DNA of 64,000 nt from Daejeonella oryzae DSM 19973 (GCF_000422945.1 NZ_AUHA01000007.1:1-64000); one strand, 5' to 3'. Shown: positions 16,843 to 53,193, counted from the first letter of the stretch. Numbers and translations: made by a program. The notes: a model not told the origin generated them from the sequence alone.

Positions 16843-16863
16843 GATTTGTATTTTAACCGAATA

Positions 16864-17988: not shown

Positions 17989-18033
17989 TAATGGAGAAGT
18001 GCTAACGCATTTCTGTAGTAAATACGAATACCA

Positions 18034-29189: not shown

Positions 29190-29308
29190 TTATGATTTTG
29201 CCCAAATGATAGAATTGATTCCAATTTTTATCATTGAACAGGCTGATTATAATCATCAGTTAATATTCAACATCCATTTAATTTTATTTTTCTTAATATA
29301 TAACTGAA

Positions 29309-30049
29309 ATGAGCTTACTCTTTTTCTGTATGGCAATTTGTTTTTCAACTATTCTGAAGGATCAAAATGCCGCAGAAATAGTCCAGAAAGCAGATCAGAA
29401 AATGCGTGGGAGCACCATGCAGGCAGAGATGAGCATTAAAACCACAAGGCCAACCTGGTCGCGGGAAATGAAATGCAAGGTGTGGACAAAAGGAAACAGC
29501 CTGTCTATGATCCTGATCCAATCGCCTGCCAGAGATAAGGGCATCTCTTTTCTCAAAAGAAATAAAGAAGTATGGAACTGGTTGCCCGCCCTGGAACGGA
29601 GCATCAAACTACCTCCGTCTATGATGAGTCAAAGCTGGATGGGAACGGATTTTACCAATGATGATCTGGTTAAGGAATCGTCAATTGTAGAGGATTATGT
29701 GCACACCCTGAAGGGAGATACGGTTATCCAGAACAGGGAATGCTATATTATTCAGATGATTCCAAGGCCGGAAACAGCGGTGGTGTGGAGCAAAGTGATC
29801 GTCTGCATTGATAAAAAAGATTTTATGGAACTTCATAGCCGTTTTTACGATGAGGAGGGAGAGCTTGTTAATACTATGAATGGCTATGATGTGAAAATGA
29901 TGGATGGGAGGCTGATACCAACACGTTTTGAAATGATTCCAACCGGTAAAAAAGGACAAAAAACAGAAATGATTTACTGGTTTATCAAATATAACCGGCC
30001 AATACCTGATGAATTCTTTAGCACTGAAAAAATGAAAGCATTGACTTAG
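29309..30049 (+). CDS. LolA-like outer-membrane lipoprotein-sorting protein
   Basis: 246 residues with a short hydrophobic N-terminus (MSLLFFCMAICFSTIL), then a half-barrel domain of the LolA-like type (AAEIVQKADQKMRGSTMQ, KGISFLKRNKEVWNWLPALE, and SWMGTDFTNDDLV, a motif common in this group). It binds lipid or lipoprotein in the periplasm. It opens a five-gene operon with two FtsX-type permeases, a LolD-like ATPase and an outer-membrane protein; spacing is 4-20 bp throughout. It probably hands cargo from the ABC exporter to the outer membrane. Confidence 0.88.
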   Translation: MSLLFFCMAICFSTILKDQNAAEIVQKADQKMRGSTMQAEMSIKTTRPTWSREMKCKVWTKGNSLSMILIQSPARDKGISFLKRNKEVWNWLPALERSIKLPPSMMSQSWMGTDFTNDDLVKESSIVEDYVHTLKGDTVIQNRECYIIQMIPRPETAVVWSKVIVCIDKKDFMELHSRFYDEEGELVNTMNGYDVKMMDGRLIPTRFEMIPTGKKGQKTEMIYWFIKYNRPIPDEFFSTEKMKALT

Positions 30050-30069
30050 TACTAACTAATCTATGAAAG

Positions 30070-31287
30070 ATGTGGATGATTCAAATGGCATGGAAAAACA
30101 TGTGGCGCAATCGAAGCCGGACCATCATTACCATGTCGGCGATATTCTTCGCCGTCATTTTATCCATTTTAGCAAGCAGTTTACAGGATGGAATTTTTAA
30201 AAATCTGGTTAAGAATGTTGTAAGTTTTTATACGGGCTATGTACAGGTTCATAAGCAGGGTTATTGGAATGAACAGATTTTGGACAACAGTTTTCAATCC
30301 TCAGTATATTCAGAAAAGAAAATTTTAGTAAATAAGTACGTGGCTGGTCTTACCGCCAGGCTGGAATCATTCGCTTTGGCTTCTTCTGGAGAAATTACAA
30401 AAGGATGCTTGGTTGTTGGGATAGATCCTGAAAAAGAAAATATAATCACTTTACTTAAAGACAAGGTTGTTAAAGGAAGCTATCTCAAAGATAATGACCG
30501 GGCAGTATTACTTTCTGAGGGTTTGGCGGAGCGGTTAAAATTGGGTGTTAATGATACACTGATTTTAATAGGTCAGGGCTATCATGGAGCTACGGCTGCA
30601 GGCAAATATTTAATAAAAGGTATTTTAAAATTTGGTTCCCCCGATCTTAATGAAAAGGCCTTATTCATGCCTTTGCCTATTGCGCAGGATTTTTATGGGG
30701 CATACGGAAGGGTTACGTCCTATGTTCTTGCTTTAAATAATTCCGGGGAAATGCAATCCACGGCAACGGATGTTGGTAAAGCGCTGGGAAGCAGTTTTGA
30801 AGTAATGACCTGGGAGCAAATGATTCCGGACATTAAGCAGCATATTGAATCTGATTCAAATAGCATGAAAAATATTCAGGGAATTTTATACATGCTTATT
30901 TGTTTTGGGATTTTCGGGACTTTACTGATGATGATGGTTGAACGAAAATTTGAAATGGGCATGCTTGTGGCCATCGGTATGAAGAAGAAGTGGCTCATTA
31001 TTCTACTTCTGTTCGAATCTGTATTTACGGTGCTGGCCGGCTGCATATTTGGCATTATTGTCTGTATTCCTCTTGTTTATTACTTGAACAGAAATCCTCT
31101 GAAGATGGGTGGAGAAACCTCTAAAGCTTACGAAGAATTTGGATTTGAACCCATTTTCCCCACATCAATTGATGCGGCGAATTTTATAAATCAAGGGCTA
31201 ATTGTTCTTGTTATTGGTTTGTTACTATCTCTATATCCCATTTATAAAATACTCCGGCTTGACCCTGTAAAGGCAATGAAACGCTAA
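30070..31287 (+). CDS. ABC transporter permease, FtsX/LolC-E type (first)
   Basis: 405 residues: N-terminal helix with the MAWKNMWRNRSRTIITMSAIF signature, a large periplasmic domain (about 45-270), and three C-terminal helices (about 275-300, 325-350, 375-395) ending in the KILRLDPVKAMKR box. This is the MacB/LolCE architecture that works by mechanotransmission rather than transport through the membrane. It pairs with the next permease (4 bp gap) as a heterodimer under the ATPase at 32518. Confidence 0.92.
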   Translation: MWMIQMAWKNMWRNRSRTIITMSAIFFAVILSILASSLQDGIFKNLVKNVVSFYTGYVQVHKQGYWNEQILDNSFQSSVYSEKKILVNKYVAGLTARLESFALASSGEITKGCLVVGIDPEKENIITLLKDKVVKGSYLKDNDRAVLLSEGLAERLKLGVNDTLILIGQGYHGATAAGKYLIKGILKFGSPDLNEKALFMPLPIAQDFYGAYGRVTSYVLALNNSGEMQSTATDVGKALGSSFEVMTWEQMIPDIKQHIESDSNSMKNIQGILYMLICFGIFGTLLMMMVERKFEMGMLVAIGMKKKWLIILLLFESVFTVLAGCIFGIIVCIPLVYYLNRNPLKMGGETSKAYEEFGFEPIFPTSIDAANFINQGLIVLVIGLLLSLYPIYKILRLDPVKAMKR

Positions 31288-31291
31288 ACTC

Positions 31292-32506
31292 ATGATTATA
31301 ATAATGGCATGGCGAAATATATGGCGTAATAAGATGCGAAGCATGGTTATTATATTATCTATAGCGGTCGGATTGTTTGCAGGCATTGCTGTGCTCGCCT
31401 TGTATAAGGGAATGATGAAAAGCAGGGTACGGACGTTGATTTATGCTGAGGCTGGTCATCTGCAGATACATGACAGCAATTTTAAAAAAGATTATGATCC
31501 CCGATATGTGATTATTAATGGGTCTAAAATAATAAAAGAAATTGCATCAGCGCCAGGGGTTTTACTGGCTGCACCGCGAAGCATCACTCAAGGTATGCTG
31601 GCCACTACCACGGGTAGTGCGGGTGTTCAAATTAATGGTGTAATACCTGAATTGGAATATGCTGTATCCCAGTTAAAAAGAAAAATTGTAGAAGGGGCAA
31701 AATTTAACTCTGCTAAAAAAAATGAAGTCCTGATCGGGAAAAAACTGGCTGATAAAATGAAATTAAAACTTCGCTCCAAGCTTGTTCTGACATTTACAGA
31801 TTCCTCCGGAACAATAGTTTCCGGGGCCTTTCGGGTAGCCGGTATTTTTCAAAGTGATAATGCTCCGCTGGATGAAAAAAATGTTTATGTTGATATAAAA
31901 GATTTAAATGCCTTGCTAAGTATTAGTTATGCTTTTCATGAGATTGTTATTCTGCTCGACAGAGATGAAGATGTCAGCAGCATTCAGGATAATTTAAGAA
32001 GAAGGTATCCGGGTTTGTTAATTGAATCATGGAGAGAAATATCACCCGAAACGGATCTCTTAGTAAAAACCACAAACCAATATTCCTACATCATCATGAT
32101 AATCATTATGATTGCCCTGGCCTTTGGTATCATTAATACCATGCTAATGGCCATAATAGAAAGAACCAGGGAAATTGGCATGATGCTCGCTCTGGGTATA
32201 AACAGGCTGCGGCTATTTACTCTTATTTTGCTCGAAACTATTTTCCTCACTCTCGCCGGAACTCCTATTGGAATTCTGGCAGCCTGGCTGATTATTAATT
32301 ACTATAACAAAAAGGGGCTTAACTTATCAGGTTTGGGTGAAGAAATGATGAGCAGCTTTGGTTTTGGAATGATCATTTATCCGGAATTTCCCATCGATAA
32401 ATTAGCCGGAGTGCTGATTATAGTAATTGCTACAGCCATTATTTCCTGTTTATTTCCGGCTTTAAGAGCTTTGATGCTTCAGCCGGTTGTGGCCTTAAGA
32501 AGATAA
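31292..32506 (+). CDS. ABC transporter permease, FtsX/LolC-E type (second)
   Basis: 404 residues with the same plan as its neighbour: MAWRNIWRNKMRSMVIILSI at the start, a periplasmic MacB-core-like domain, helices near 265-290, 315-340 and 370-395, and a LQPVVALRR end. The motif MLMAIIERTREIGMMLALG is characteristic of FtsX/LolE cytoplasmic coupling helices. The two permeases differ in sequence, so a LolC/LolE-type heterodimer is likely. Confidence 0.92.
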   Translation: MIIIMAWRNIWRNKMRSMVIILSIAVGLFAGIAVLALYKGMMKSRVRTLIYAEAGHLQIHDSNFKKDYDPRYVIINGSKIIKEIASAPGVLLAAPRSITQGMLATTTGSAGVQINGVIPELEYAVSQLKRKIVEGAKFNSAKKNEVLIGKKLADKMKLKLRSKLVLTFTDSSGTIVSGAFRVAGIFQSDNAPLDEKNVYVDIKDLNALLSISYAFHEIVILLDRDEDVSSIQDNLRRRYPGLLIESWREISPETDLLVKTTNQYSYIIMIIIMIALAFGIINTMLMAIIERTREIGMMLALGINRLRLFTLILLETIFLTLAGTPIGILAAWLIINYYNKKGLNLSGLGEEMMSSFGFGMIIYPEFPIDKLAGVLIIVIATAIISCLFPALRALMLQPVVALRR

Positions 32507-32517
32507 AAAATTAAACG

Positions 32518-33240
32518 ATGGACACTGTGATTGATGCTCATAATATCAGCAAGGTATATAACCCTGAAACCATACCGGTTTATGCTGTAAATAATGTGCA
32601 TCTGCATTTAAAAAAGGGTGAATTTACTGCTTTGGTAGGTCCTTCAGGCTCAGGTAAAACAACTTTACTGAATTTGATAGGTGGGCTAGACAAACCAGAT
32701 GAAGGGAATATTCTTATAAATGGGATAGACATCACTAAATTATCAGCCAATGATCTTATCGATTTCAGACTCCACAACATCGGTTTTGTCTTTCAATCTT
32801 TTAACCTAATTCCCGTTTTAACGGCGAAGGAAAATGTAGAATTTATCATGCAGCTGCAGCGCATAAATAAAAAGCAGCGGGATGAACGGATTAAACAATT
32901 GTTTAAAGAGATTGATCTGGAAGATAAACTCAACGAACGGCCTTCGAAACTTTCCGGAGGACAGCAGCAGCGTGTAGCGGTAGCAAGGGCTCTTGCCTCC
33001 AAACCAAAGTTTATTCTGGCTGATGAACCTACTGCCAACCTTGATTCTAAATCGGCCTCCAATCTGTTAGATATAATGGACAAACTAAACCGGGAGGAAA
33101 ACATAACCTTTCTTTTCTCTACTCATGACCAGCGGGTTATTGACCGGGCCAGAAGAGTAATCACATTGGTAGATGGAAGAATTGTGAGCGATACGGCAGA
33201 GGTTTCAACCAAACATGAAGATGCAGATATGAAGCACTAA
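32518..33240 (+). CDS. ABC transporter ATP-binding protein, LolD/MacB-type
   Basis: 240 residues: Walker A GPSGSGKTT, Q loop FVFQSFNLIPVLTAKENVEF (the FNLIPxLTAxENV signature of the LolD/MacB group), signature LSGGQQQRVAVARAL, Walker B ILADEPTANLD and H loop STHDQ. It energises the two FtsX-like permeases encoded just upstream. Confidence 0.95.
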   Translation: MDTVIDAHNISKVYNPETIPVYAVNNVHLHLKKGEFTALVGPSGSGKTTLLNLIGGLDKPDEGNILINGIDITKLSANDLIDFRLHNIGFVFQSFNLIPVLTAKENVEFIMQLQRINKKQRDERIKQLFKEIDLEDKLNERPSKLSGGQQQRVAVARALASKPKFILADEPTANLDSKSASNLLDIMDKLNREENITFLFSTHDQRVIDRARRVITLVDGRIVSDTAEVSTKHEDADMKH

Positions 33241-34402: not shown

Positions 34403-34497
34403 CGGATGTGACAAACGTCATAATTATTAATGAGGATAGTCAATTTTAATTTACAACCTGACTATTAACTTGTAATCTCAAATAAATCATTTCTATT

Positions 34498-34710
34498 ATG
34501 AAAAAGTCATCTAAAATACTTGCTGCGATGGGCTTTGTAGCTTTTGCAGGTGTGATTGTCGGGATTATGATTGCTCCTGATAAAGGCAGCAGAACCATCA
34601 GGAAAATTAAAGACAAGGGTAGAAGAATTGCTGATGATTTAGAGGATACCGTCCGAAAAGGTAAAGAAAAACTTCATGATCTCAGAGAAAAAGCGGATGA
34701 GTTTATTTAA
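34498..34710 (+). CDS. YtxH-domain small membrane protein
   Basis: 70 residues: a Gly-rich transmembrane segment (about 8-28, MGFVAFAGVIVGIMIAPDKGS with the APxxG motif of YtxH) followed by a basic amphipathic helix (RKIKDKGRRIADDLEDTVRK). This family is induced by general and envelope stress in many bacteria; the molecular function is unknown. Confidence 0.85.
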   Translation: MKKSSKILAAMGFVAFAGVIVGIMIAPDKGSRTIRKIKDKGRRIADDLEDTVRKGKEKLHDLREKADEFI

Positions 34711-34861: not shown

Positions 34862-37381
34862 ATGCCGGAAAAGGTAATTCATTTACATAACATTCAGGGA
34901 TTATCTGATCAGCAGGTTAACGAACTTCGGGAAAAGTATGGAGAAAATATTTTTCATGCTGATTCCTCCGGCCGCTTTATACATATAATTTGGGATATCA
35001 TTAAAGAGCCGATGTTTATACTTCTGGCTATTGCATGCTCTTTATATTTTATTTTGAATCAGCCCGAAGAAGGTTTTTTGATGCTTTTGGCGATGATTTT
35101 TGTGTCAGCTATTTCTTTTTATCAGGAAGTGAAAAGCAGCAATGCCTTAAAAGCCTTAAAGCAGTATACAGAGCCGAAGGTACGGGTAATTAGAAATGCA
35201 GAGGAATTGACTATATCGTCGCAGGAACTTGTTCCCGGAGATATTATTTTGCTGGAAGAAGGCATGAATATTCCTGCAGATGCGGTCATTCTGGAGGAAA
35301 ATGATTTTACGGTAAATGAATCAATTATTACGGGTGAATCTTTGCCGGCTGATAAAGAGGAAACGGAAGGAAAAAACCTCTTATATCAGGGAACCACAAT
35401 CAACAGCGGGAAGTGTACAGCAAAAGTTACCACTACCGGCAACAATACTGTTTTAGGTAAACTTGGTAAATCTTTGGGGAGTTATAATCCTCCCAAAACA
35501 ATGCTTCAACAGCAAATTAATGTATTTGTGCGCCGTCTTGCTTTATTTGGTTTACTTGGGTTTTTTATCATTTTCATTGTAAATTATCTCAATCACGGCG
35601 AATGGGTTATAAGTCTTTTGTTTGCTTTAACCTTAGCAATGTCTGCCGTACCCGAAGAAATTCCTGTCGCATTTTCTTCTTTTATGGCATTGGGCGCTTA
35701 TAAAATGAGCAAGCTGGGGATTATTTCCAGGCAACCTCAGGTAGTTGAAAATCTTGGAGCGGTAAGCGTCATCTGTTTCGATAAAACGGGTACAATCACA
35801 GAGAATAAAATGCAGGTTAAAACTATTTATGACTTTGCCAGCGATGCCTTAATTGATCTGGATGATTCTGTTGATCTGAAAAATAAAAATGTATTGCGTT
35901 TTGGAGTTTTGGCCAGTGAAAAGAATCCATTCGATGCAATGGAGAAAGCAATTTGGGAGGCATTTTATTTGTTTGCTGATGGCAAAGGTCATGAAGTGCA
36001 GAAAATGATATTTGAATATCCATTGGAAGGGCAGCCGCCTATGATGACTCATGTTTATGAAATCAATTCAGTTAAGGTAGCCGCCGGAAAAGGTGCAGGA
36101 GAGCGGATTATAGCAATCAGCAAATTGAAAGAAGCTGACCAGGAAAAAATAGCCCAGCATATTAAAACGCTGGCTTCAAAAGGGTACCGTGTTATTGCCG
36201 TTTCGAGTGCGGTGTATTCAGGTCTTCAGCTTCCTGCACATCAGAACGATTTTGACTGGCAGTTTGAAGGTCTGCTTGCTCTTTATGATCCTCCCAAAAA
36301 GAATATCAGGGAGGTACTTAAAAAATTTGATAACGCCAAAATTGATGTTAAACTTATCACCGGCGATTATCCCGAAACAGCAATCAACATAGGTGGTCAG
36401 GTTGGCATCCCCAATCACCTTAAATTCCTCAGCGGCGAACAGGTAATGAGCCTGAGTACAGCGGAGCTTCAACAAAAAGTTAATACCATTCATATTTTTG
36501 CCCGTATGTTTCCGGATGCGAAATTAAAGGTTATTGAAGCCTTAAAAGCAAATGGAGAAATTGTAGCCATGACAGGCGACGGAGTAAATGATGGCCCGGC
36601 ATTAAAATCTGCCAGCATTGGTATTGCAATGGGGCAAAAGGGAACGGAGATTGCCCGACAGGCTTCAGATCTGATCCTGACGGATGATAATATGGAACGG
36701 ATGGTTACCGCCTTATATGAAGGAAGAAAAATTTTCAGTAACCTTAAAAAAGCCGTTCGATATATTATCTCCATTCATATTCCTATTGTGCTGGTTGCCT
36801 CACTGCCTGTAATTCTGGGCTGGACCTATCCCAATATTTTTACCCCTATTCATGTTATTTTCATGGAATTGATAATGGGTCCCACTTGTTCTATTTTTTT
36901 TGAAAGAGAACCTGTAGAAGAAAATATTATGCAGCAAGGTCCAAGGGAAAGAAAAGGAAGCCTGTTTACGCGGAACGAACTTCTGGTGAGTATTATTCAG
37001 GGACTGATGATTGCCGCCGGAGCATTAATTCTGTATTTTTATTATATGAGTAATGGTTCCAGTCTCGAACAAACCCGTACCATTGTTTTTACAATGCTGA
37101 TACTAAGCAATATTTTCCTAACGTTTGCCAATAGATCATTTACTAAAACACTCTACTATACAGTACGTTATAAAAATAATCTGGCGCCTTATATTTTAAT
37201 AATTTCCGCATTTTTCCTGATTTGTCTCCATTTCGTTCCTTATGTTAGAAATGTGTTTCAACTTAGTTCTATAACATTAGTACAGTTTTGGAATTGTTTC
37301 GGAGTAGCACTGCTCAGCGTATTTTGGTTTGAGCTTTACAAAATCAGATTCTTACATTCAGCTGTAGATCTTAAATTCTAA
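34862..37381 (+). CDS. Cation P-type ATPase, Ca2+/P2-like (first)
   Basis: 839 residues: N-terminal cation-ATPase domain (LSDQQVNELREKYGENIF), actuator TGES (ITGESLPADKEE), helix 4 with PEEIPVAF in place of the SERCA PEGLP, D307 in CFDKTGTITENK, KLITGDYPETA, MTGDGVNDGPALKSASIGIAMG, and a C-terminal six-helix domain. The variant helix 4 and a missing KGAPE-type motif (AAGKGAGERI is seen) place it in a divergent branch near Ca2+ ATPases; the ion is uncertain. An AT-rich spacer of 150 bp upstream holds a partial TCTGATAATTTT half-site (34789-34800). Confidence 0.9.
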   Translation: MPEKVIHLHNIQGLSDQQVNELREKYGENIFHADSSGRFIHIIWDIIKEPMFILLAIACSLYFILNQPEEGFLMLLAMIFVSAISFYQEVKSSNALKALKQYTEPKVRVIRNAEELTISSQELVPGDIILLEEGMNIPADAVILEENDFTVNESIITGESLPADKEETEGKNLLYQGTTINSGKCTAKVTTTGNNTVLGKLGKSLGSYNPPKTMLQQQINVFVRRLALFGLLGFFIIFIVNYLNHGEWVISLLFALTLAMSAVPEEIPVAFSSFMALGAYKMSKLGIISRQPQVVENLGAVSVICFDKTGTITENKMQVKTIYDFASDALIDLDDSVDLKNKNVLRFGVLASEKNPFDAMEKAIWEAFYLFADGKGHEVQKMIFEYPLEGQPPMMTHVYEINSVKVAAGKGAGERIIAISKLKEADQEKIAQHIKTLASKGYRVIAVSSAVYSGLQLPAHQNDFDWQFEGLLALYDPPKKNIREVLKKFDNAKIDVKLITGDYPETAINIGGQVGIPNHLKFLSGEQVMSLSTAELQQKVNTIHIFARMFPDAKLKVIEALKANGEIVAMTGDGVNDGPALKSASIGIAMGQKGTEIARQASDLILTDDNMERMVTALYEGRKIFSNLKKAVRYIISIHIPIVLVASLPVILGWTYPNIFTPIHVIFMELIMGPTCSIFFEREPVEENIMQQGPRERKGSLFTRNELLVSIIQGLMIAAGALILYFYYMSNGSSLEQTRTIVFTMLILSNIFLTFANRSFTKTLYYTVRYKNNLAPYILIISAFFLICLHFVPYVRNVFQLSSITLVQFWNCFGVALLSVFWFELYKIRFLHSAVDLKF

Positions 37382-37486: not shown

Positions 37487-39112
37487 ATGAACAGAAATGA
37501 AAGCTCAAATCATTTTGAAGCATTTTTTGAGTATGCTACTATGGGAATCCTGGTTACAAACAAAAACGGCGAAATTACCGCTATCAATCCTTTTGCAATT
37601 CAGGAGTTCGGGTATTCTGAGCGAGATCTGATTGGTGAAAAAATTGAAAGATTAATTCCCTCTAGATTTCATACCAGGCATATTGTTCATCGTGGAAAAT
37701 TTTCCAAAAATCCACAGACAAGGCCCATGGGTTTGGGAATGGACTTATATGCACTAAAAAAGGATGGTACCGAATTTCCGGTAGAGGTTAGTCTGGGTAA
37801 TTATTTTAATGAAGGAAACAGATTTGTAATTGCTTTTATCAATGATATATCCGTCCGTAAGGCAGCGGAAGCTAAAGTAGAGAAACTAAATAATGAACTG
37901 GAAGAAACCGTTGCACAGCGCACCCGGGACTTACAGGAAACATTACATCAACTGAATATTTCCAAAGATAAGCTGCAGGATGTGCTTTCTTATCAAAAAG
38001 CTTTGCTGGATAATGCAGGAGCATTAATAATTGCCACTGACGTGAACGGTATAATCAAGCTTTTTAATCCCGAAGCTTCCCGTCTTACCGGGTACAGTGA
38101 ATCTGAAGTTATTGATAAGGCTACACCTCTTTTATTTCATGATCAGAGCGAAGTTGAAAAAAAGCGCATAAAATTAGAGAGTGAATTTGGACTAAAGTTT
38201 ACAAATGATTTTGCAGTATTGGTTGAAAAATCCAGACGAAATATTCATGAAGAAGAACAATACACTTACATAACCAAAAGCGGAGATTCATTTCCTGTAT
38301 CCTTAACTATTACTTCTATACGAGATGTTACAGGAGAAATTACCGGTTTTATGGGCATTGCAATTGATATTTCAAAAAGAATAAAAGCGGAGGAGGATCT
38401 CAGGGAGTCGCTAGAAAAGGAAAAGGAACTGAATGAACTGAAATCAAGGTTTGTTTCTATGGCTTCGCATGAATTCCGAACACCATTAAGTACGGTTCTC
38501 TCATCAGCTTATTTAATTGAAAAATATAGGGTTATAGAAGATCAGCCACAGCGTGAAAAACATCTTCAGCGTATTATTTCTTCGGTAAGCATGCTGACCG
38601 ATATTCTGAATGATTTTTTAAGTGTGGGAAAAATTGAAGAAGGTAAGATTCAGGTCAGGATTACAGAATTTGACATAGAACAGCAGCTCACTTTGATTTT
38701 ATCGGAAATTAAGCATATCCTAAAAGATCGTCAAAAAGTACAGTATGTTCATGAAGGAAGTTCTCTTGTGTTTTTGGACAGTTCGCTGCTAAAGCATATT
38801 GTTATGAATTTAATCTCCAACGCAAGTAAGTTTTCACCGGAGGATGGTGCTATTGAAATCAAAACCATACATAACGAACAGCATATTTATCTTTCGGTAA
38901 AAGATCATGGAATAGGAATTTCTAAAGACGATCAAAAACATTTAATGGAACGCTTTTTCCGTGGTACAAATGCAGGCCATATTCAGGGTACAGGTCTCGG
39001 ATTGCATATAATTTCTAAATATGCCGAGCTGATGAATGGTGCCGTTCAATGTATAAGTGAACTTGAAAAAGGTACAGAGTTTGTCATTACATTTAATACT
39101 AAAAAAGTGTAA
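37487..39112 (+). CDS. Soluble PAS-PAS histidine kinase, FixL-like
   Basis: 541 residues without transmembrane helices. PAS1 (about 10-125) resembles the FixL haem-PAS: YATMGILVTNKNGEITAIN, IPSRFHTRHIVHRGKF and KKDGTEFPVEVSLG, with H65 where FixL has its haem ligand. A coiled coil (125-165) is followed by PAS2 (about 165-300), HisKA with H328 in MASHEFRTPL, and HATPase_c with NLISNASKFS, DHGIGI and GTGLGLHIIS. The next gene, 140 bp downstream, is a receiver-Crp fusion and is the likely partner. An oxygen or redox-sensing role is inferred; haem binding cannot be read from sequence alone. Confidence 0.92.
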   Translation: MNRNESSNHFEAFFEYATMGILVTNKNGEITAINPFAIQEFGYSERDLIGEKIERLIPSRFHTRHIVHRGKFSKNPQTRPMGLGMDLYALKKDGTEFPVEVSLGNYFNEGNRFVIAFINDISVRKAAEAKVEKLNNELEETVAQRTRDLQETLHQLNISKDKLQDVLSYQKALLDNAGALIIATDVNGIIKLFNPEASRLTGYSESEVIDKATPLLFHDQSEVEKKRIKLESEFGLKFTNDFAVLVEKSRRNIHEEEQYTYITKSGDSFPVSLTITSIRDVTGEITGFMGIAIDISKRIKAEEDLRESLEKEKELNELKSRFVSMASHEFRTPLSTVLSSAYLIEKYRVIEDQPQREKHLQRIISSVSMLTDILNDFLSVGKIEEGKIQVRITEFDIEQQLTLILSEIKHILKDRQKVQYVHEGSSLVFLDSSLLKHIVMNLISNASKFSPEDGAIEIKTIHNEQHIYLSVKDHGIGISKDDQKHLMERFFRGTNAGHIQGTGLGLHIISKYAELMNGAVQCISELEKGTEFVITFNTKKV

Positions 39113-39252
39113 TTAAATAAACGACTTTCACATTTATACATTGGAATAGTGAAGATGATAATGCTGGTTTTGTTTTTATAAATTATTTGATATTCACTGA
39201 TTAAATGCCTTTTAAATATTAATTAAATAGAATTTAAAATCAATCTGTTCGG

Positions 39253-40311
39253 ATGAAAACGATTTTGCTGATAGAAGATAATGACGATATCCGCAATAAT
39301 ACGGCGGAAATTCTGGAACTGTCAAATTACAAGGTAATAGTGGCAGAAAATGGAAAGACGGGTATTGAAAAAGCCCTGAAATACATGCCTGATTTAATCA
39401 TTTGCGATATATTGATGCCCGTACTGGATGGATACGGAGTATTGCATGCCATTCATAAAAATGATAAGATCAAGAATATTCCTTTCATTTTTCTAACTGC
39501 AAAAACAGAAAGATCTGATTTTAGAAAAGGCATGGAGCTTGGAGCGGATGATTATATAACCAAACCTTTTAATGGAACAGAATTGTTAAATGCCGTTGAT
39601 AGTCGCCTTAAAAAACTGGATTTATTAAAACAGGACCTGACTCCTGATTTACAAGGTCTTAAACAATTAATTCAGGTTTCATTCGGGAAAAATGTATTGC
39701 AATCTCTTACCGAAGAGCGGAACATAAATAAATACAAAAAAAAGCAAATCGTGTATTCAGAAGGCAATCATCCCAACAGGTTGTATTATGTAATAAAAGG
39801 GAAAGTGAAAGCCTATAAGACAAATGAAGATGGTAAAGAACTGGTAACTGATCTTTTTAGTCCGGGAGATTTTCTGGGACATATTGCTTTGCTGGAGGGA
39901 ACAGTGTACAAAGACATGGCTGAAACTTTAGAAGAAACCGAACTGGCAGTGATTCCTAAGGAAGATTTTGAAGAAATAATTAATAAAAATCCGGAAGTAG
40001 CCAAGAAATTTATTCAGTTGCTGGCAAGGAATATTTCTGAAAAAGAAAGCCACTTATTGGGACTTGCTTATAATTCACTTCGTAAAAAAGTGGCCGATGC
40101 ACTGATTATGCTCCAAAATAAATACCAGGAAACTCAGGAAGAAAAGTTTGAAATACATATCAGCAGAGAAAGTTTGGCTACTATTGCAGGTACGGCTACA
40201 GAATCACTTATCAGAACACTCAGCGATTTTCGTACTGAAAAGATGATAGATATTAAAGACGGTAATATTACTATTATTAACAGAAGTAAGCTCGAGCATT
40301 TGCTTAACTAA
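39253..40311 (+). CDS. Response regulator fused to a Crp/Fnr-type regulator (REC-cNMP-HTH)
   Basis: 352 residues: receiver domain (1-120) with E8/D9, phosphoacceptor D52 in LIICDILMPVLDG and the conserved ITKPF Lys; a linker helix (125-150); a cyclic-nucleotide-binding-like domain (about 150-265, GNHPNRLYYVIKGKVKAY, LFSPGDFLGHIALLEG); and a Crp-type helix-turn-helix (ISRESLATIAGTATESLIRTL). It therefore joins in one protein what FixJ and FixK do in two. It is paired with the PAS kinase upstream and placed centrally in the stress island. There are no FNR-type cysteines. Confidence 0.94.
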   Translation: MKTILLIEDNDDIRNNTAEILELSNYKVIVAENGKTGIEKALKYMPDLIICDILMPVLDGYGVLHAIHKNDKIKNIPFIFLTAKTERSDFRKGMELGADDYITKPFNGTELLNAVDSRLKKLDLLKQDLTPDLQGLKQLIQVSFGKNVLQSLTEERNINKYKKKQIVYSEGNHPNRLYYVIKGKVKAYKTNEDGKELVTDLFSPGDFLGHIALLEGTVYKDMAETLEETELAVIPKEDFEEIINKNPEVAKKFIQLLARNISEKESHLLGLAYNSLRKKVADALIMLQNKYQETQEEKFEIHISRESLATIAGTATESLIRTLSDFRTEKMIDIKDGNITIINRSKLEHLLN

Positions 40312-40349: not shown

Positions 40350-41570
40350 TCACTGATATTGCTTTTTTAACATGCTTAGGAATATGATGCTAGTTCCTGT
40401 GAATAAAATTACTGCAGCCACAAGCAGCATCAGATTTATGTGGGGCACAACATTATATATTAAAGCTGCAACTCCCTGTAACATTAAAAGAATTTCGTTA
40501 ATAAGAATACCTGCAATAAAAATGTAAGCGCCCATTTTTATTTTTTTTGTAACAGCTATCAGTTCAAAGGAAAAGATATAGCCAATAATAAATATGCTTG
40601 TCACAGCCAATAAGACCAGATGAAGGTAACCGATTATGATGGGCCTGAAACCATATGACAACTGGCTTAATGCTGGGTGAACAGAAGCCGTCTGAAGTAG
40701 CAGCTTAATTGAAAATGCTGTTCCGGAAAGAAACAACAATATTTTACCGTGTTTTGAGAACTGTTTATTTACAATGTCCTTATTTGTGATCCAGAACTTA
40801 ATTATTAAAAACCAGCCTGCCAACTGTGCAATTACAGCGAAAATAATAATTCCATAAGTAAATGCCGACATGGGTATCCATAGTATGGATAACAAGTATG
40901 CGGGGATGCATGCAAAACAAAAAAGTAGGAATGCAAACTTTAAATTTTTAACGGATTTATACAGAATTTCTAATCTGGATACAAGCAACCCTATTCCAGC
41001 AAACAAAAACCAGCCATTATATTGAAAATGTAAGTAAAAATAGATGTTTGCCAGGTGCCAGTTCTGATCGGTTAACCGGTTTATCATCATGTAAGCCAGG
41101 CCAAACGTGCCCAAAGATGAAAAAACACCGAAAGCGAGTGCGGCCTTAATCCATAGAGAACTTACTTTATTTTCCTTGATTCTGTTCAGATCTTTCCAGT
41201 AATAAATAGCAAAGCAATAAGAAACCAGAATAGACAGGGTTGAAAAACTTATAGATAAATAATTATAACCCTGTAAAAAGAAACTTATGAGCATACCATA
41301 AGCTGTAACTACATTAGCATAAAGTAACCAGCGGTATTTTTTTAGAATCTGTTCTCCGTGTGTTAAAGCTAAATGGTGAATCAGTAACACCATTAAAGTT
41401 TGCGTAATCCAGCCTGCAAAAGCAAAATGAGAATGACTGTGTAAGACGTATTTCTGTTCTATGAATGGAAGGGAAAATTCAATTTTATAGCGAAGGATAA
41501 ATCCAAGAACGGCAACCAGCAATAGGTTTAGAAAAGAAACAGTTAGCCACCTGTGTAAGAATTTACTCAT
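40350..41570 (-). CDS. Multi-pass membrane protein, haem-copper-oxidase subunit I-like
   Basis: 406 residues with about twelve hydrophobic helices. HSHSHFAFAGWITQTLMVLLIHH near residue 45 resembles the helix with the haem-ligand His in subunit I of cbb3/NO-reductase-type enzymes, and HFQYNGWFLFAGIG recalls a second ligand helix. The full six-His set was not found, so it is not a normal oxidase. It follows a Crp/Fnr gene (31 bp gap, same strand) and is divergent from the nos operon. A role in denitrification-linked electron transfer or haem/copper handling is inference. Confidence 0.75.
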   Translation of the reverse strand: MSKFLHRWLTVSFLNLLLVAVLGFILRYKIEFSLPFIEQKYVLHSHSHFAFAGWITQTLMVLLIHHLALTHGEQILKKYRWLLYANVVTAYGMLISFFLQGYNYLSISFSTLSILVSYCFAIYYWKDLNRIKENKVSSLWIKAALAFGVFSSLGTFGLAYMMINRLTDQNWHLANIYFYLHFQYNGWFLFAGIGLLVSRLEILYKSVKNLKFAFLLFCFACIPAYLLSILWIPMSAFTYGIIIFAVIAQLAGWFLIIKFWITNKDIVNKQFSKHGKILLFLSGTAFSIKLLLQTASVHPALSQLSYGFRPIIIGYLHLVLLAVTSIFIIGYIFSFELIAVTKKIKMGAYIFIAGILINEILLMLQGVAALIYNVVPHINLMLLVAAVILFTGTSIIFLSMLKKQYQ

Positions 41571-41601: not shown

Positions 41602-42222
41602 TTAAATGAGTATGACTTCAATCATATCGGTAAAAAACACTTTTCCTTTTGCTATGGTCAGTTCTCCCTTATCATGCATATGGCGCATCGTTCTGATCAC
41701 AGTTTCAACCCTTAAACCCGTCATGTCTGCAATTTGCTGACGGGTTAATTTAAGCTGATTACAATCATTACAAAAGTTTTTATTTTCGGATTTTAGATAA
41801 TTGAGAAGATTTGCTATCCGTGTTTCCGGACAATGAGAGCCGAACGATTTTATAATTGATAATTTAAAGCGAACTCTTTTTGCAAGCAGCCGCGTAAAAG
41901 CAAATTGAATTTCATAATTCTCTTTAATCAGATCGAGAAAGATGGGTTTGTAAAGTCTGATTACTACGCTTTTGGTATCAGATATAGCAGTTGCGGCATA
42001 TGGACCGTCATCAAAAAGCGGTAATTCGCCAAAGGATTCACCCTGTTCGACAATGCTGTGAATACATTCTTTACCGTCTTCATCAATATTAACCCACCTT
42101 ACATTGCCGCTTACTAATTGATAATAGTAACTGCAGGATTGACCTTCACTAAAAATAGTTTCGTTGGCACTTAGTTTTTTATAAGTAGCTCCCCATGCTA
42201 ATAATCGGTCTATTTCAATCAT
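41602..42222 (-). CDS. Crp/Fnr-family transcriptional regulator
   Basis: 206 residues: cNMP-like sensor domain (FSEGQSCSYYYQLVSGNVRW, VEQGESFGELPLFDDGPYAATA) and a Crp helix-turn-helix (LTRQQIADMTGLRVETVIRTMRHM). It lacks the N-terminal Cys cluster of FNR but has several scattered cysteines, including NFCNDC. It is divergent from the cytochrome c-nosZ operon over a 310 bp spacer, so it is the best candidate for controlling nos expression in response to low oxygen or NO. Confidence 0.92.
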   Translation of the reverse strand: MIEIDRLLAWGATYKKLSANETIFSEGQSCSYYYQLVSGNVRWVNIDEDGKECIHSIVEQGESFGELPLFDDGPYAATAISDTKSVVIRLYKPIFLDLIKENYEIQFAFTRLLAKRVRFKLSIIKSFGSHCPETRIANLLNYLKSENKNFCNDCNQLKLTRQQIADMTGLRVETVIRTMRHMHDKGELTIAKGKVFFTDMIEVILI

Positions 42223-42532
42223 TTGTTATTAAAGTTATCTGCTTATAAACTTTACCAAAGTTAGCCCGGGGCTTAGCTTTCAATTATGACTTGGATTAAT
42301 TAATTATATGATCTTGCTTATTTTTTTATGCAGGGATTGCTTGGTAGATTTAATTTCTACATGCTTATTAAACTTTGAGTTAACTTCTGTTTAATAAACC
42401 TGATTATCAGCAAGGTACGGTCTTTTTTAGATTTATAAGCGTTCTTTTTTAGTTTATGATTGAACGCATAACAATCTATTTTTTCTATAGGTAAACTTGC
42501 ATAATCAAATTTTAAATAAAAGATAAAATCAC
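42223..42532. other. Divergent regulatory spacer between the Crp/Fnr gene and the nos operon
   Basis: 310 bp of AT-rich DNA. CTGATTATCAG at 42400-42410 is a short palindrome whose half-site resembles TGATA-type sites elsewhere in the island. No classical TTGAT-N4-ATCAA Fnr box was found. Confidence 0.45.
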
Positions 42533-43015: not shown

Positions 43016-43145
43016 GATAAGCTCCCTAAAGCTCCTCCAAACTTTACAGAAAATTATAATTCATATGAATAGCGATTATCGCTTAACAGGATTTTTATGC
43101 CCTGTAAAATGCAAAAGCTCAATTGTCCAATTTAAAAAAGATAAA

Positions 43146-45140
43146 ATGAAACTAATCAAAAACAGTGTATTTGGCCTTTCGGCCCTTGCATTATTATTAA
43201 GCATGAACGCATGCAAGCCAAAGGATGCAGGTTCTGTTGTGAGTGGCGATGCAGCCTCCAAAACGTATGTTGCTCCAGGCAAATATGATGAATACTACAA
43301 CTTTGTATCCGGTGGTTTTAGCGGGCAATTGGCCGTTTACGGATTGCCAAGCGGTCGGTTATTACGTGTAATCCCGGTTTTTTCGGTTGATCCTGAAAAA
43401 GGATGGGGCTATAGCGAAGAAACAAAACCAATGCTGAACACGTCGCATGGCGAAGTTCCCTGGGATGATTTGCACCACGTATCTATGTCGCAAACAAAGA
43501 GTGTAATTGATGGCCGATGGGTATTTGTAAATGGAAACAATACACCCCGTGTAGCTCGTATAGATCTGAAGACATTCCGCACAGCAGAAATTTTAGAACT
43601 GCCAAATAGCGGCGGTAATCACTCATCACCATTTATTACTGAAAACTCTGAATATATTGTTGCGGGCACGCGGTTCAGTATTCCTCTTGATGACCAGAAT
43701 GGCGATGTACCCATCAACACCTACAAACAAAATTTTAAAGGAACCATCAGTTTTATAAGTGTAGATAAAGATAATGGCAATATGGATGTTGCATTTCAAT
43801 TGAAAACCCCTGGCGTAAACTTCGATTTAAGTCGGGCCGGAAAAGGTAAATCGGCCGGATGGTTCTTCTTTAGTTGCTATAATACCGAACAGGCCAATAC
43901 TTTACTTGAAGTAAACGCATCCAAAAATGATAAAGATTTTATCATGGCTGTAAATTGGAAGAAAGCAGAAGAGCTGATTAAGGCGGGAAAAGGGAAAAAA
44001 CAAGCTGTTAAATATGCAAGCAACCGTTTTGACGAAAAAACGCACACTGCAACTTCTAGGATGAAAAACGAAGTAACCGTTTTGGATATTAAAGATCACC
44101 CCGGATTGGTTTATATGATACCTTGTCCTAAATCTCCGCACGGTGTTAATGTAGATCCAACAGGCGAATACATTGTAGGCAGCGGAAAACTGGCAGCAAT
44201 ACTTCCGGTATTTAGCTTTGATAAAATGCAAAAAGCAATCGCCAATAAAACCTTTGAAGGAGATTATCAGGGAATTCCGGTTATTAAATACGAAGCAGCT
44301 TTACATGGCGAAGTTCAAAAGCCAGGTTTAGGCCCTCTTCACACGGAGTTTGATGATAAAGGCAATGCTTATTCAACCATGTTTGTATCCAGTGAGGTAG
44401 TAAAATGGAATGTGAAGACCTTAAAGGTGTTAGACAGACAGCCAACATATTATTCTCCGGGCCATTTAATGATCCCTGGTGGGGATTCAGGTAAACCAAC
44501 GGGAAAATACATGGTTGTTTATAACAAAATTACAAAAGACCGTTTCCTGCCAACTGGCCCGGAATTATCACAAAGTGCACAATTGTTTGATATCAGCGGA
44601 GATAAGATGCAGTTGATACTCGACTTTCCGACCATAGGAGAGCCACACTACGCCCAGGCGATAGCGGCCAGCGCAATCCGCGAAAATTCAACAAAACTCT
44701 TTAAAATTGAAGAAAATAGCCATCCTTACGTATCTAAAGGAGAAGGCGAAACTAAAGTAGTACGTAAAGGTAAAGAAGTACATGTAAACCTTACGTTGAT
44801 CCGTTCTCATCTTACACCTGACAATATTGAAGGAATTAAAGTAGGTGATGAAGTATATTTTCATGCAACCAACCTGGAGCAGGATTGGGATGTACCGCAT
44901 GGATTTGCTATTAAAGGAGCATTAACCGCTGAGTTACTGGTAATGCCGGGCGAAACTACCACCTTAAAATGGATACCTAAGAAAGCGGGTATGTACCCGA
45001 TGTATTGCACTGATTTTTGCAGTGCTCTGCACCAGGAAATGTCGGGATATATCAGAGTTTCTCCGGCGGGAAGCAACGTGGCAATAAGCTACAGCACAGG
45101 TACAAACCAGCCTAAATCAGCAGTTACTGCTAAGAAGTAG
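43146..45140 (+). CDS. nosZ: Nitrous oxide reductase, clade II (Sec-type)
   Basis: 664 residues from ATG 43146 (MKLIKNSVFGLSALALLLSM); an upstream ATG at 43065 would put a polar leader before the signal peptide. The signal peptide lacks a twin-arginine motif and ends LSMNACK, so this is the Sec-exported, possibly lipid-anchored, clade II enzyme. The CuZ region begins with DDLHHVSMSQTK; the C-terminal CuA domain has DWDVPHGFAIKG and YCTDFCSALHQEM (the C-x3-C-x3-H-x2-M site). It reduces N2O to N2 in the periplasm. The operon continues with NosL, D, F and Y. The presence of NO-handling genes but no NO reductase in the window suggests a N2O-scavenging lifestyle or reductases elsewhere. Confidence 0.97.
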   Translation: MKLIKNSVFGLSALALLLSMNACKPKDAGSVVSGDAASKTYVAPGKYDEYYNFVSGGFSGQLAVYGLPSGRLLRVIPVFSVDPEKGWGYSEETKPMLNTSHGEVPWDDLHHVSMSQTKSVIDGRWVFVNGNNTPRVARIDLKTFRTAEILELPNSGGNHSSPFITENSEYIVAGTRFSIPLDDQNGDVPINTYKQNFKGTISFISVDKDNGNMDVAFQLKTPGVNFDLSRAGKGKSAGWFFFSCYNTEQANTLLEVNASKNDKDFIMAVNWKKAEELIKAGKGKKQAVKYASNRFDEKTHTATSRMKNEVTVLDIKDHPGLVYMIPCPKSPHGVNVDPTGEYIVGSGKLAAILPVFSFDKMQKAIANKTFEGDYQGIPVIKYEAALHGEVQKPGLGPLHTEFDDKGNAYSTMFVSSEVVKWNVKTLKVLDRQPTYYSPGHLMIPGGDSGKPTGKYMVVYNKITKDRFLPTGPELSQSAQLFDISGDKMQLILDFPTIGEPHYAQAIAASAIRENSTKLFKIEENSHPYVSKGEGETKVVRKGKEVHVNLTLIRSHLTPDNIEGIKVGDEVYFHATNLEQDWDVPHGFAIKGALTAELLVMPGETTTLKWIPKKAGMYPMYCTDFCSALHQEMSGYIRVSPAGSNVAISYSTGTNQPKSAVTAKK

Positions 45141-45175
45141 TGCCTCATTAACATGCTAATTGGGCAATTGCCTAA

Positions 45176-45206
45176 AAACTTGTCAGGTTTAATGCCTGAC
45201 AAGTTT
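45176..45206 (+). terminator. Strong hairpin between nosZ and nosL
   Basis: AAACTTGTCAGG (45176-45187) and CCTGACAAGTTT (45195-45206) form a perfect 12-bp stem with a 7-base loop, 35 bp after nosZ. No long T-run follows directly (CTAATTCC), so it may be an attenuator or mRNA-stabilising structure that raises nosZ over the accessory genes. Downstream, 45262-45300 holds a degenerate REP-like stretch (TTCGACTCAGTTCAGGATAG). Confidence 0.6.
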
Positions 45207-45369
45207 CTAATTCCTGATTATACTTTTTTCTTAAACGATCCATCAGATTTTACACAACAATCCTTTTGCCGCCTTTTCGACTCAGTTCAGGATAGCCAAG
45301 AGGATTTCGCTTCAATCCATACTGCTAAATGAGCAGGACAGGATTTTATGATGTTAAAAACTCCAATTT

Positions 45370-46410
45370 ATGAAGGTTGATCTCAGCACTCACAACTCAA
45401 CACTTACTACGCTTTCCAGAATCACGCTTTTTATTTGCGGACTGGGTTTATTGGTGGTTTTATTTGCACCGATCTGGAGAATAGATTTAATGGCTCCGCA
45501 ATACCCGGAAGGGTTAAGATTGCTGATTTATGCCAATAATTTAGCCGGCAACGTGGATATTATTAATGGCCTGAACCATTACATCGGTATGAAGACCCTG
45601 CATGCAGATGATTTTGTGGAATTTAAAGTATTACCCTATATCATTGTGTTCTTTTCTATTTGTTTTATTGCTGTGGCCATTGCTGCAAAAAGAAAATGGA
45701 TGAACATTCTATTCGTGCTATTTGTGGCTTTTGGTATTCTGGCAATGGTTGATTTTTGGAGATGGGAATATAGTTACGGACATGATTTAAACCCGGATGC
45801 AGCCATCAAAGTGCCCGGAATGGCCTATCAGCCTCCTTTAATTGGCTATAAACAATTATTAAATTTTGGAGCCTGGTCTGTACCTGATATTGGCGGATGG
45901 ATATTTATTGCCGTGGGTGCATTACTATTATCAGCTGTGGTTTATGAATGGAGGAGGAGAAAAAAAATAATCACGCAATTTGGCACAACGCCTTTATGGT
46001 TTATTGGTGTTCTGACATTGGCGCTTACTGGTTGCAGTACAGATCCCGAACCCATCCGAACAGGGCAGGATAACTGCAATTTTTGTAAAATGACAATTAG
46101 CGATAAACGTTTTGGTGCGGAAATAGTAACTCAAAAGGGTAAAATCTACAAATTTGATGATGCTCATTGTTTGAACGCTTTTATGGATTCTAACAAAGTA
46201 GGGAAAGCGGAAATTGCAGGGGTTTATTTTACAGACTTCATCCAGCCGCATGAGCTTACAAATGTTGAACAGGCTTATTTTTTGCAAAGCCCCAAATTAA
46301 AAAGTCCTATGAACGGAAACATAGCCGCTTTTAGCCGGGAGGATAGCCTTACTAAAATGTTGCCCCAGTATCCTGGTTTCAAAATAACATGGGAGGACGT
46401 GCAGAAGTGA
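45370..46410 (+). CDS. nosL: Membrane protein-NosL fusion
   Basis: 346 residues in one open frame. Residues 1-205 form a membrane domain with four helices (about 20-40, 85-105, 110-130, 175-195) and a periplasmic loop. Residues about 215-346 are NosL, the copper-binding chaperone that supplies NosZ, with NCNFCKMTISDKRFGAEIV (CxFCxM) and YKFDDAHCLNAFM. Between them lies LWFIGVLTLALTGCSTD, which looks like the former lipoprotein signal peptide of NosL retained as an internal helix. No start codon lies near it, so this is a real fusion, not two genes. The membrane part may correspond to the separate membrane protein found next to nosZ in other clade II clusters. The gene overlaps nosD. Confidence 0.9.
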   Translation: MKVDLSTHNSTLTTLSRITLFICGLGLLVVLFAPIWRIDLMAPQYPEGLRLLIYANNLAGNVDIINGLNHYIGMKTLHADDFVEFKVLPYIIVFFSICFIAVAIAAKRKWMNILFVLFVAFGILAMVDFWRWEYSYGHDLNPDAAIKVPGMAYQPPLIGYKQLLNFGAWSVPDIGGWIFIAVGALLLSAVVYEWRRRKKIITQFGTTPLWFIGVLTLALTGCSTDPEPIRTGQDNCNFCKMTISDKRFGAEIVTQKGKIYKFDDAHCLNAFMDSNKVGKAEIAGVYFTDFIQPHELTNVEQAYFLQSPKLKSPMNGNIAAFSREDSLTKMLPQYPGFKITWEDVQK

Positions 46411-47636
46411 AACATTGCCTGTTTATATTATCCCTGTTTTTTTGTTATGCCACATCGGCAAAAACTATACATGTGGGTTCAAGTCATCCATACAAAACGG
46501 TTACCGCAGGCCTTGAAGCAGCGTTAGCCGGAGATACGGTGCTGGTGGATGCCGGTCACTATAAGGAGAAAAACCTGGTCATCAATAAAAGAATTTTTCT
46601 TATCGGAATAAATTATCCGGTATTGGATGGAGAAAAAAAATACGAAATCATATCCATAATGGCGGACGCCGTAGTGGTTGATGGCTTTAAAATCATAGGC
46701 TCTGGCATTTCAAGCCTGCAAGATCTGAGCGGCATAAAAATTTACGACAGCAAAAAAGTTATCGTCAAAAATAATATCCTTGAAGATACTTTTTTTGGCA
46801 TCTACACACAAAATGGTGTGGACTGCACCATTGAAAACAATCGGCTTATATCCAGCAGTAAAGGAGAACAGCAAAACGGCAACGGTATCCATTGCTGGAA
46901 AAGTGAAGGTATGCGTATTATCGGCAATCAGGTAACCGGACACCGCGACGGAATTTATCTGGAGTTCGTAACAAATTCAATTATCTGGCGCAATACTTCC
47001 ATAAAAAATGTCCGCTACGGCCTTCATTTTATGTTTTCTAATGATGATACCTATGTGGCCAATGTTTTTAGCAACAACGGCTCTGGTGTGTCGGTCATGT
47101 TTTCACAACGCATAAAAATGTTAAGCAATTATTTTGAAGAAAACTGGGGCGATGCCGCCTATGGAATCTTGCTTAAAGAAATATCAGACGGCTACATGGA
47201 GGGCAATCATTTCAGAAAGAATACAAGCGCCATTTACATGGAAGGCGCCAACCGCATTTTAATGAAGCGAAATACTTTTGAGAACAACGGCTGGGCATTA
47301 AAGATTCAGGCAAGTTGCATGGATGTGGTTTTGGAGCAGAATAACTTTGTAGGCAATACATTTGATGTTGGCACTAACGGCTCTTTAGTGTTAAACAGGT
47401 TTACCAATAATTATTGGGATAAATACGAGGGGTACGATCTTGATAAAGACAAGATTGGCGATATTCCATACCGTCCGGTAAGTATGTTTTCCATGATCGT
47501 AGAAAAATACCCAACGGCTATGATCTTATTCCGGACTTTTATAACGGCTTTATTAGATAAAACAGAAAAAATATTGCCAAGTCTGACACCGGAAAACTTG
47601 AAAGATACAGCGCCGTTGATGAAAAAAGCGTTTTGA
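46407..47636 (+). CDS. nosD: NosD, periplasmic nitrous oxide reductase maturation protein
   Basis: 409 residues from GTG 46407, whose GTGA overlaps the nosL stop; an ATG at 46389 would add six unlikely residues. A signal peptide (CLFILSLFFCYATSA) is followed by a right-handed parallel beta-helix of NosD/CASH repeats (GIYTQNGVDCTIENNRL, GNGIHCWKSEGMRIIGNQVTG, HRDGIYLEFVTNSIIWRN). NosD is needed for CuZ assembly in NosZ and works with NosF and NosY. Confidence 0.95.
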   Translation: MKHCLFILSLFFCYATSAKTIHVGSSHPYKTVTAGLEAALAGDTVLVDAGHYKEKNLVINKRIFLIGINYPVLDGEKKYEIISIMADAVVVDGFKIIGSGISSLQDLSGIKIYDSKKVIVKNNILEDTFFGIYTQNGVDCTIENNRLISSSKGEQQNGNGIHCWKSEGMRIIGNQVTGHRDGIYLEFVTNSIIWRNTSIKNVRYGLHFMFSNDDTYVANVFSNNGSGVSVMFSQRIKMLSNYFEENWGDAAYGILLKEISDGYMEGNHFRKNTSAIYMEGANRILMKRNTFENNGWALKIQASCMDVVLEQNNFVGNTFDVGTNGSLVLNRFTNNYWDKYEGYDLDKDKIGDIPYRPVSMFSMIVEKYPTAMILFRTFITALLDKTEKILPSLTPENLKDTAPLMKKAF

Positions 47637-47751
47637 AGTTAAATATATCTTCAGCAATCAGGAAAAGAAACAGAACAGGTGGAAGTTCTATGATTTCTTA
47701 TTCTAAAGCGGATAACTGGGTTAATAGCTAAAAGCCCGATAAATAAATACA

Positions 47752-48456: not shown

Positions 48457-48549
48457 GTATTTTTTCTAGCTGCCAGCTTTCAGCCATTATATTTCAGAAC
48501 ACATAACTTAACACGAATATCCAATAATCATTACATAATACGATCCTTA

Positions 48550-52855: not shown

Positions 52856-53193
52856 GGTTTTAAAATCAATTGTTTTTGTTTAACAAATGTATTTTTATCA
52901 GCAATAGCGATCAAAGACAGTGGTCAGGCGAAACAATGAGATTGGTCAGGCTGCAGAATTTCATTAACGGATTAGTAATTAAAAACAACTTTTCCTATCT
53001 GAATCACTTTAATTTTCGATTGGTAATCATACAATTCAATGATGATGGTCATTCTTAATCCTCAGTCTATAAAATATTTTTACTGTATAATTTGTTGCGG
53101 TAATGCATTGATTATTATGTTTTGGATTGGGATCAAAATTTTTGAGATCAATAATCCGCCAACAAATAAATTTTTCCTCGAAAGCTATTTCAT
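52856..53193. other. Spacer between hsp20 and the USP genes
   Basis: 338 bp holding a direct repeat TGGTCAGGC at 52921-52929 and 52943-52951 (22-bp period, two helical turns), and an imperfect inverted repeat GATCAAAATTTTTGAGATC near 53133. These are candidate regulator sites for the divergent hsp20 and USP promoters. No gene was seen. Confidence 0.45.

Follow-up and report, generated by a model that had tools for sequence, protein, structure and literature searches.

Haem PAS kinases, Crp proteins and response regulators are each already known, and fusions of a receiver to a Crp-type output form a minor class in response-regulator surveys. The systems closest to the locus described here are FixL-FixJ-FixK of Sinorhizobium and Bradyrhizobium, DosP (EcDos), FG214, mycobacterial DosS/DosT-DosR and the Crp/Fnr regulators. 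In FixL, Arg220 moves onto bound O2. Oxygen and NO control is poorly charted in Bacteroidota, including carriers of a clade II nitrous oxide reductase such as the strain discussed below. FG214, a haem-PAS one-component regulator of Fimbriimonas ginsengisoli reported in a 2026 preprint, holds haem b through a proximal His156, with either His175 or Met172 on the distal side (PMC13060918; PDB 10jx/10jy). The mycobacterial Rv2028c-Rv2031c operon encodes Usp, PfkB, PRTase/erythromycin-esterase and HspX, and its Usp and PfkB genes are reported to be induced by hypoxia, NO and CO (PMC4410610). Neither the receiver-Crp class nor the paired lineages described here are treated in the open-access papers searched, a coverage outside which most subscription journals lie.

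The window analysed is a 64,000-nucleotide stretch of Daejeonella oryzae DSM 19973 (GCF_000422945.1 NZ_AUHA01000007.1:1-64000). The original prediction placed in it a soluble PAS kinase followed by a receiver fused to a cNMP-binding-like domain and a Crp helix-turn-helix (HTH), and this much is borne out: the two open reading frames (ORFs) lie on the plus strand at 37487..39112 and 39253..40311, no part of the kinase looks transmembrane (its highest 19-residue Kyte-Doolittle mean is 1.33), and Pfam recovers all three domains of the second protein (Response_reg, 5e-27; cNMP_binding, 2e-23; HTH_Crp_2, 3e-14). The 541-amino acid (aa) kinase has the order PAS-PAS-HisKA-HATPase, with PAS1 at 37511..37867 (residues 9-127), PAS2 at 37997..38374, and HisKA (E 4e-13; H328) and HATPase_c (4e-25) at 38441..39097; the H, N, G1 and G2 boxes were all found. 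PAS2 lacks a haem-ligand His and is missing from many orthologues. The 352-aa regulator (REC-Crp) comprises a receiver (39262..39597), the cNMP-binding-like domain (39730..39990) and the Crp-type HTH (40087..40302), with the recognition helix TATESLIR at 40192-40215. The 141 bp between the two genes differ from the spacing in most relatives, which counts against the reading that we prefer below. Elsewhere in the window, two overlapping ORFs in different frames (5461-6395) both resemble parts of one TauE/SafE-type transporter, a possible frameshift, and a separate KdpD-like N-terminal domain (380 aa) and then a separate sensor kinase are encoded behind kdp transporter genes (16846-19752).

PAS1 aligns without gaps to FixL, DosP and FG214. 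His65 (37679..37681, plus strand) falls on the FixL proximal ligand (BjFixL H200), the DosP ligand and FG214 H156, with no gap across the F-helix/G-strand region, and is the predicted proximal haem ligand. The claim that PAS1 carries an RxxH motif aligned with the FixL ligand was right about the aligned His and wrong about the motif: the string here is R60-F-H62-T-R64-H65, with His rather than Arg at position -3, and R..H occurs in the kinase only outside PAS1, in strings ending at residues 254 and 359. RxxH was rejected as a haem diagnostic because the literal motif is absent from this domain. When PAS1 alone was compared by sequence with the PDB, the 14 best chains were all haem PAS domains (FixL, DosP and FG214), FixL being the top single match. 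A profile of the PAS1 family gave 14 haem PAS domains at E<=1e-15, followed by LOV proteins at about 1e-7. The structural check that had been proposed for PAS1 agrees: the first 34 fold matches of an AlphaFold2 model (pLDDT 87.8) are all haem PAS chains. The PAS structures in the PDB are biased towards FixL and DosP, which leaves this match evidence strong, not decisive; from sequence and model, haem binding by PAS1 is likely.

The alignment with FG214 also points to a candidate distal ligand. Met172, the distal ligand in the reduced FG214 crystal, corresponds to Met81 of PAS1 (37727..37729, plus strand), the M of an RPMG motif, and His175 corresponds to G84. The oxygen-switch Arg of FixL (BjFixL Arg220) and DosP (Arg97) is replaced by Met85 (37739..37741, plus strand). 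These correspondences yield a specific prediction, namely His/Met coordination of haem in PAS1.

The same genome encodes a second kinase/REC-Crp pair, on contig C2 at about 229.6-231.9 kb (L099:10622-12870). Its REC-Crp is 49% identical to that of the window and its gene overlaps the kinase gene; the 394-aa kinase contains a PAS with MPEPYKSAHNGY...IIGIGREV, and so has both the His and Arg220. The pair adjoins ldhA-, hemN-, CcoI-like ATPase, fused ccoNO, ccoP and pta-ackA genes (named by sequence inspection). We refer to the window type of kinase and REC-Crp as lineage W and to the C2 paralogue type as lineage P. In relatives, P loci have the order kinase, REC-Crp, ldhA and hemN, often with ccoI/ccoNO/ccoP, and the kinases keep both His and Arg220 in 23/23 cases. 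Among 23 W kinases, the equivalent of H65 is kept in 20 and the Met81 position is Met in 17, and position 220 is occupied by Met (12), Leu (5), Arg (4) or Ile (2). Since W-type partners outside the Chitinophagaceae mostly have Arg at position 220, the Met appears to be derived. In a PAS tree, FixL groups with P, and W, the RPMG-type PAS domains and FG214 lie across a branch with support of 98/92 or 100/99. The columns are few, FG214 and DosP have long branches, and an alternative grouping (W in a joint clade with FixL) survives testing (p-AU 0.42), so the tree is support for the W/P split, short of proof.

It is at the C2 locus that His, Arg and the cbb3/hemN context all occur together, and the tree places FixL with the C2 paralogue. 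A reading of window PAS1 as a true oxygen sensor of the FixL kind, and of its pair as a FixL-FixJ-FixK cascade in two proteins, is therefore quite improbable, even with the aligned His ligand, the low-oxygen context and a FixL chain as the best single PDB match. FixL orthology of window PAS1 was rejected on the strength of Met85 and the tree position, the C2 paralogue being the FixL match, and the term "FixL-like" overstates the resemblance because Met85 stands in place of Arg220. The condensed cascade of the original prediction is a good description of the C2 locus and a loose one of the window locus, which has neither Arg220 nor a PAS1 of the FixL branch.

A second alternative is that PAS1 is haem-free or otherwise liganded, the His having another role, and that the pair senses a metabolite or signals via PAS2 or its partners. 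The switch Arg is missing, the broad RPMG family to which PAS1 belongs is of unknown cofactor, and three orthologues have no His. We consider this alternative unlikely, while giving it some weight, as all close sequence relatives with a solved structure bind haem (the RPMG-type FG214 among them), most orthologues keep the His, and the gene context is one of low oxygen. In favour of haem, too, the three orthologues without the His have the longest PAS branches in the W set, as expected if the cofactor has been lost. The reading that we prefer, a haem-binding PAS1 that is not a true FixL, has the same points to answer: Met at the switch position, His at position -3, three W kinases that lost the His yet keep the system, and the wide occurrence, in kinases with no established cofactor, of RPMG-type PAS domains that carry this His. 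PAS domains of this type with the same conserved His were seen in Streptomyces, Legionella, Paraburkholderia, Variovorax and haloarchaea (loci L173-L178), often in tandem copies, and analogy with FG214 suggests that many of them may bind haem.

The receiver of the window REC-Crp has an intact active site (E8/D9, phospho-acceptor D52, T82 and K104), which is conserved in relatives. The output is not an HTH of the NarL/FixJ type: Pfam assigns a cNMP-like fold and a Crp HTH, and PDB matches are to Crp/Fnr structures. The CRP phosphate-binding cassette with Glu72/Arg82 is absent; the position of Glu72, which contacts cAMP in CRP, is His or Tyr in W proteins, and the cassette reads FLGHIALLEGTVYKDMA. 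The FNR Fe-S cysteines are likewise absent from the window protein, whose single Cys (C51) is in the receiver. The lack of both a Glu72 equivalent and the Fe-S cysteines fits phosphorylation as the only switch. The E..SR recognition helix of the FixK/FNR type is not present either, the window protein having ESLIR. A full-length REC-Crp structure model was of low confidence (pLDDT 67, pTM 0.40) and was set aside.

The proposed survey of REC-Crp proteins beside PAS kinases showed that the pairing recurs. At E<=1e-40, REC-Crp was found in 109/142 good family genomes (Chitinophagaceae), mostly as P, and in 60/392 sampled Bacteroidota genomes, two of those 60 matching over the receiver only. Ferruginibacter, Niabella, Arachidicoccus and Chitinophaga are among the genera with close W orthologues, and the culturable species Niabella drilacis and Chitinophaga filiformis carry W-type loci (L041 and L059). 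In W and P loci, and likewise in Hymenobacter, Runella and Spirosoma plasmids, the genes for kinase and REC-Crp are neighbours; the Hymenobacter swuensis pair adjoins truncated haemoglobins, a heavy-metal P-type ATPase, ccoS and ccoN. Because it is found across the Chitinophagaceae and other Bacteroidota, amid low-oxygen genes, the pairing is conserved and not accidental. Every alignable W protein has the recognition helix E-S-L/M-I-R, and P proteins have E-T-I/V/L-S-R. In the phylum sample, PAS type tracks helix type (IIG.GR with ET.SR, RPMG with ES.IR), with one ETVIR (L204) as the sole exception.

The two lineages also differ in the DNA around them. A gapped-palindrome search of intergenic DNA, in which only half-site and gap lengths were assumed, returned ATGA/CTGA halves in W loci and GTGA/ATGA halves in P loci. 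The intergenic density of TGA-N6-TCA is 2.31/kb in W loci and 2.63/kb in P loci versus 0.53 in twenty control regions, a 4-5 fold enrichment around the loci of both lineages, with other spacings at background. The outer base of the half-site leans to C in W loci and to G in P loci (per-locus test, p 1e-5, which is optimistic because the loci are related). Site pairs 22 bp apart occur 24 times in W and 23 times in P, and no other spacing occurs more than twice. This exact tandem pattern was found 129 times versus 4 reversed controls in 61 family genomes, and five times versus none in the D. oryzae DSM 19973 genome. A relaxed genome-wide definition of targets (MTGA-N6-TCAK) was discarded as too common, with 498 matches; intergenic density and the tandem pattern were used in its place.

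In the window, one predicted tandem operator pair, 22 bp apart (34408..34443), lies upstream of an ORF for a small YtxH-like protein (34498..34710, plus strand) and the Ca-type cation P-type ATPase directly upstream of the kinase (34862..37381, plus strand), both candidate targets. Single TGA-N6-TCA sites lie 88 bp upstream of Hsp20 (52936..52949), about 142 bp upstream of the Usp gene at 53194 (53039..53052) and 52 bp upstream of a LolA-like/ABC operon at 29309-33240 (29243..29256). A PfkB-like gene is also present in the window (28260-29189). Among W-locus copies, an upstream site is present for 10/11 Hsp20 and 11/12 Usp1 genes, and among P-locus copies for 14/14 ldhA genes, versus 36/289 control ORFs; the distance of the Hsp20 site from the start codon is kept in orthologues, usually at 88-98 bp. 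The remaining four tandem pairs of the genome are on C2. One precedes Usp and a PPDK-type enzyme; the others separate a baeRF-family gene from a methyltransferase, BON from PRTase, and a DUF892 gene from an erythromycin esterase. None of these four has a clear W or P signature and the W-type outer C is not clear, so that the P regulator could be the one that uses them. The region C2:338000-375999 (L235, L236), with four of the genome's five predicted tandem operators, has the appearance of a stress/low-oxygen island, its genes including Usp, PPDK, FtsH-, DegP- and AcsA-like genes, PRTase, BON and erythromycin esterase.

Other Crp-family proteins are encoded in the same genome and may share TGA-N6-TCA sites, a further point against the preferred reading. 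The sites could belong mainly to such regulators, for example the P-type REC-Crp or the lone Crp encoded at 41602-42222, leaving the window REC-Crp with few targets. The lone Crp, near the window pair, has a similar helix (ETVIR), and tandem sites also occur in some genomes with no detected REC-Crp. Tandem pairs are, however, commoner in genomes with REC-Crp (2.59 vs 0.88, p 0.002), the sites concentrate round both REC-Crp loci, and the half-site bias differs between W and P, all of which makes this assignment unlikely. The kinase/REC-Crp pair adjoins a Sec-dependent (clade II) nitrous oxide reductase operon (43065-49317). The lone Crp and a 406-aa membrane protein (40350-41570; no Pfam or NCBIfam match) are conserved together, adjoining cytochrome c and, where in view, NosZ, in relatives L040, L137 and L146; in relative L153, matches were confined to the membrane protein, cytochrome c and NosZ. 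Relatives have TGA-N6-TCA in the gap that separates the lone Crp gene from the gene for the nos-linked cytochrome c. In the window, the corresponding interval (42223-42532) contains only imperfect versions and gives no support for the window REC-Crp controlling the nos operon directly.

On balance, and with modest confidence, we favour the explanation that the window pair is a two-component system in which PAS1 binds haem b via His65 without being a true FixL, and in which REC-Crp acts on TGA-N6-TCA sites. His65 would most likely hold haem b, and the distal ligand would probably be Met81 (or Met85). A change at this haem, whether of gas (O2 or NO) or of haem redox state, would determine how active the kinase is at H328, from which phosphate would pass to D52 of the adjacent REC-Crp, whose Crp part has neither the key cAMP-contact residue nor Fe-S cysteines, so that phosphorylation would replace ligand binding as its switch. 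Phosphorylated REC-Crp would then recognise TGA-N6-TCA sites of the Crp type, in many cases with two dimers on an operator pair spaced 22 bp, and would regulate Hsp20, Usp, YtxH/Ca-ATPase, BON, PRTase, erythromycin-esterase and PEP-synthase-like genes (low-oxygen/stress) without an intermediate. The sequence itself shows the genes and domains, their conserved pairing and paralogy, the matching residues, and the enrichment and spacing of the sites; haem and its ligand, phosphotransfer, DNA binding and the direction of control are inferred. The pair probably switches on these low-oxygen survival genes directly. Within this explanation, it is an accessory paralogue of a core FixL/REC-Crp system adjoining cbb3 oxidase genes.

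A broader interpretation is offered tentatively, as possible rather than probable. These proteins may form a Bacteroidota class of response regulators in which phosphorylation takes the place of cAMP or Fe-S, with two co-evolved haem-kinase/REC-Crp pairs that have different DNA codes and 22-bp dimer-pair operators; the FixL-type pair might serve microaerobic respiration, and the His/Met-haem window pair a DosR-like survival regulon. Such a phylum-level module, if real, would connect gas sensing directly to respiration and survival genes by way of two proteins, its predicted operators being ready for testing, and would show one sensor-regulator pair duplicating and diverging in both sensing residue and DNA code.

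Compared with FixL-FixJ-FixK, the pairs described here share a haem-type PAS kinase, a receiver and a Crp/FNR-type output, and the C2 paralogue adjoins genes of the kind that FixK would target (cbb3 oxidase, ccoI and hemN). They differ in that receiver and Crp output are one protein, with no separate FixJ or FixK in the pair; in addition, window PAS1 lacks Arg220 and lies outside the FixL branch, and the window's candidate targets resemble stress genes, not fixNOQP. FG214 shares with window PAS1 the RPMG-type PAS and, in matching positions, the proximal His and the Met at +16, but it is an HTH-PAS protein without a kinase, and its distal His175 is Gly84 in the window. DosP is a haem PAS match by both sequence and fold, and His/Met coordination would be comparable; its Met95, however, is at +18 (Leu83 in the window), it keeps Arg97, and its output is a phosphodiesterase. 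Mycobacterial DosS/DosT-DosR likewise combines a haem sensor kinase (predicted here) with a stress/dormancy gene set, the candidate counterparts here being Hsp20, Usp, PfkB, PRTase/erythromycin-esterase and the Ca-type ATPase. This likeness is unproven and one of candidate gene content only: the haem domains of DosS/DosT are GAF domains, DosR is of the NarL type, and these regulators have no homology to the window pair. With Crp/Fnr proteins, the regulator shares its cNMP-like domain, Crp HTH and palindromic TGA-N6-TCA sites; unlike them, it has no cAMP Glu72 or Fe-S cysteine set, carries a receiver fused in front, and is associated with sites arranged in tandem, 22 bp apart.
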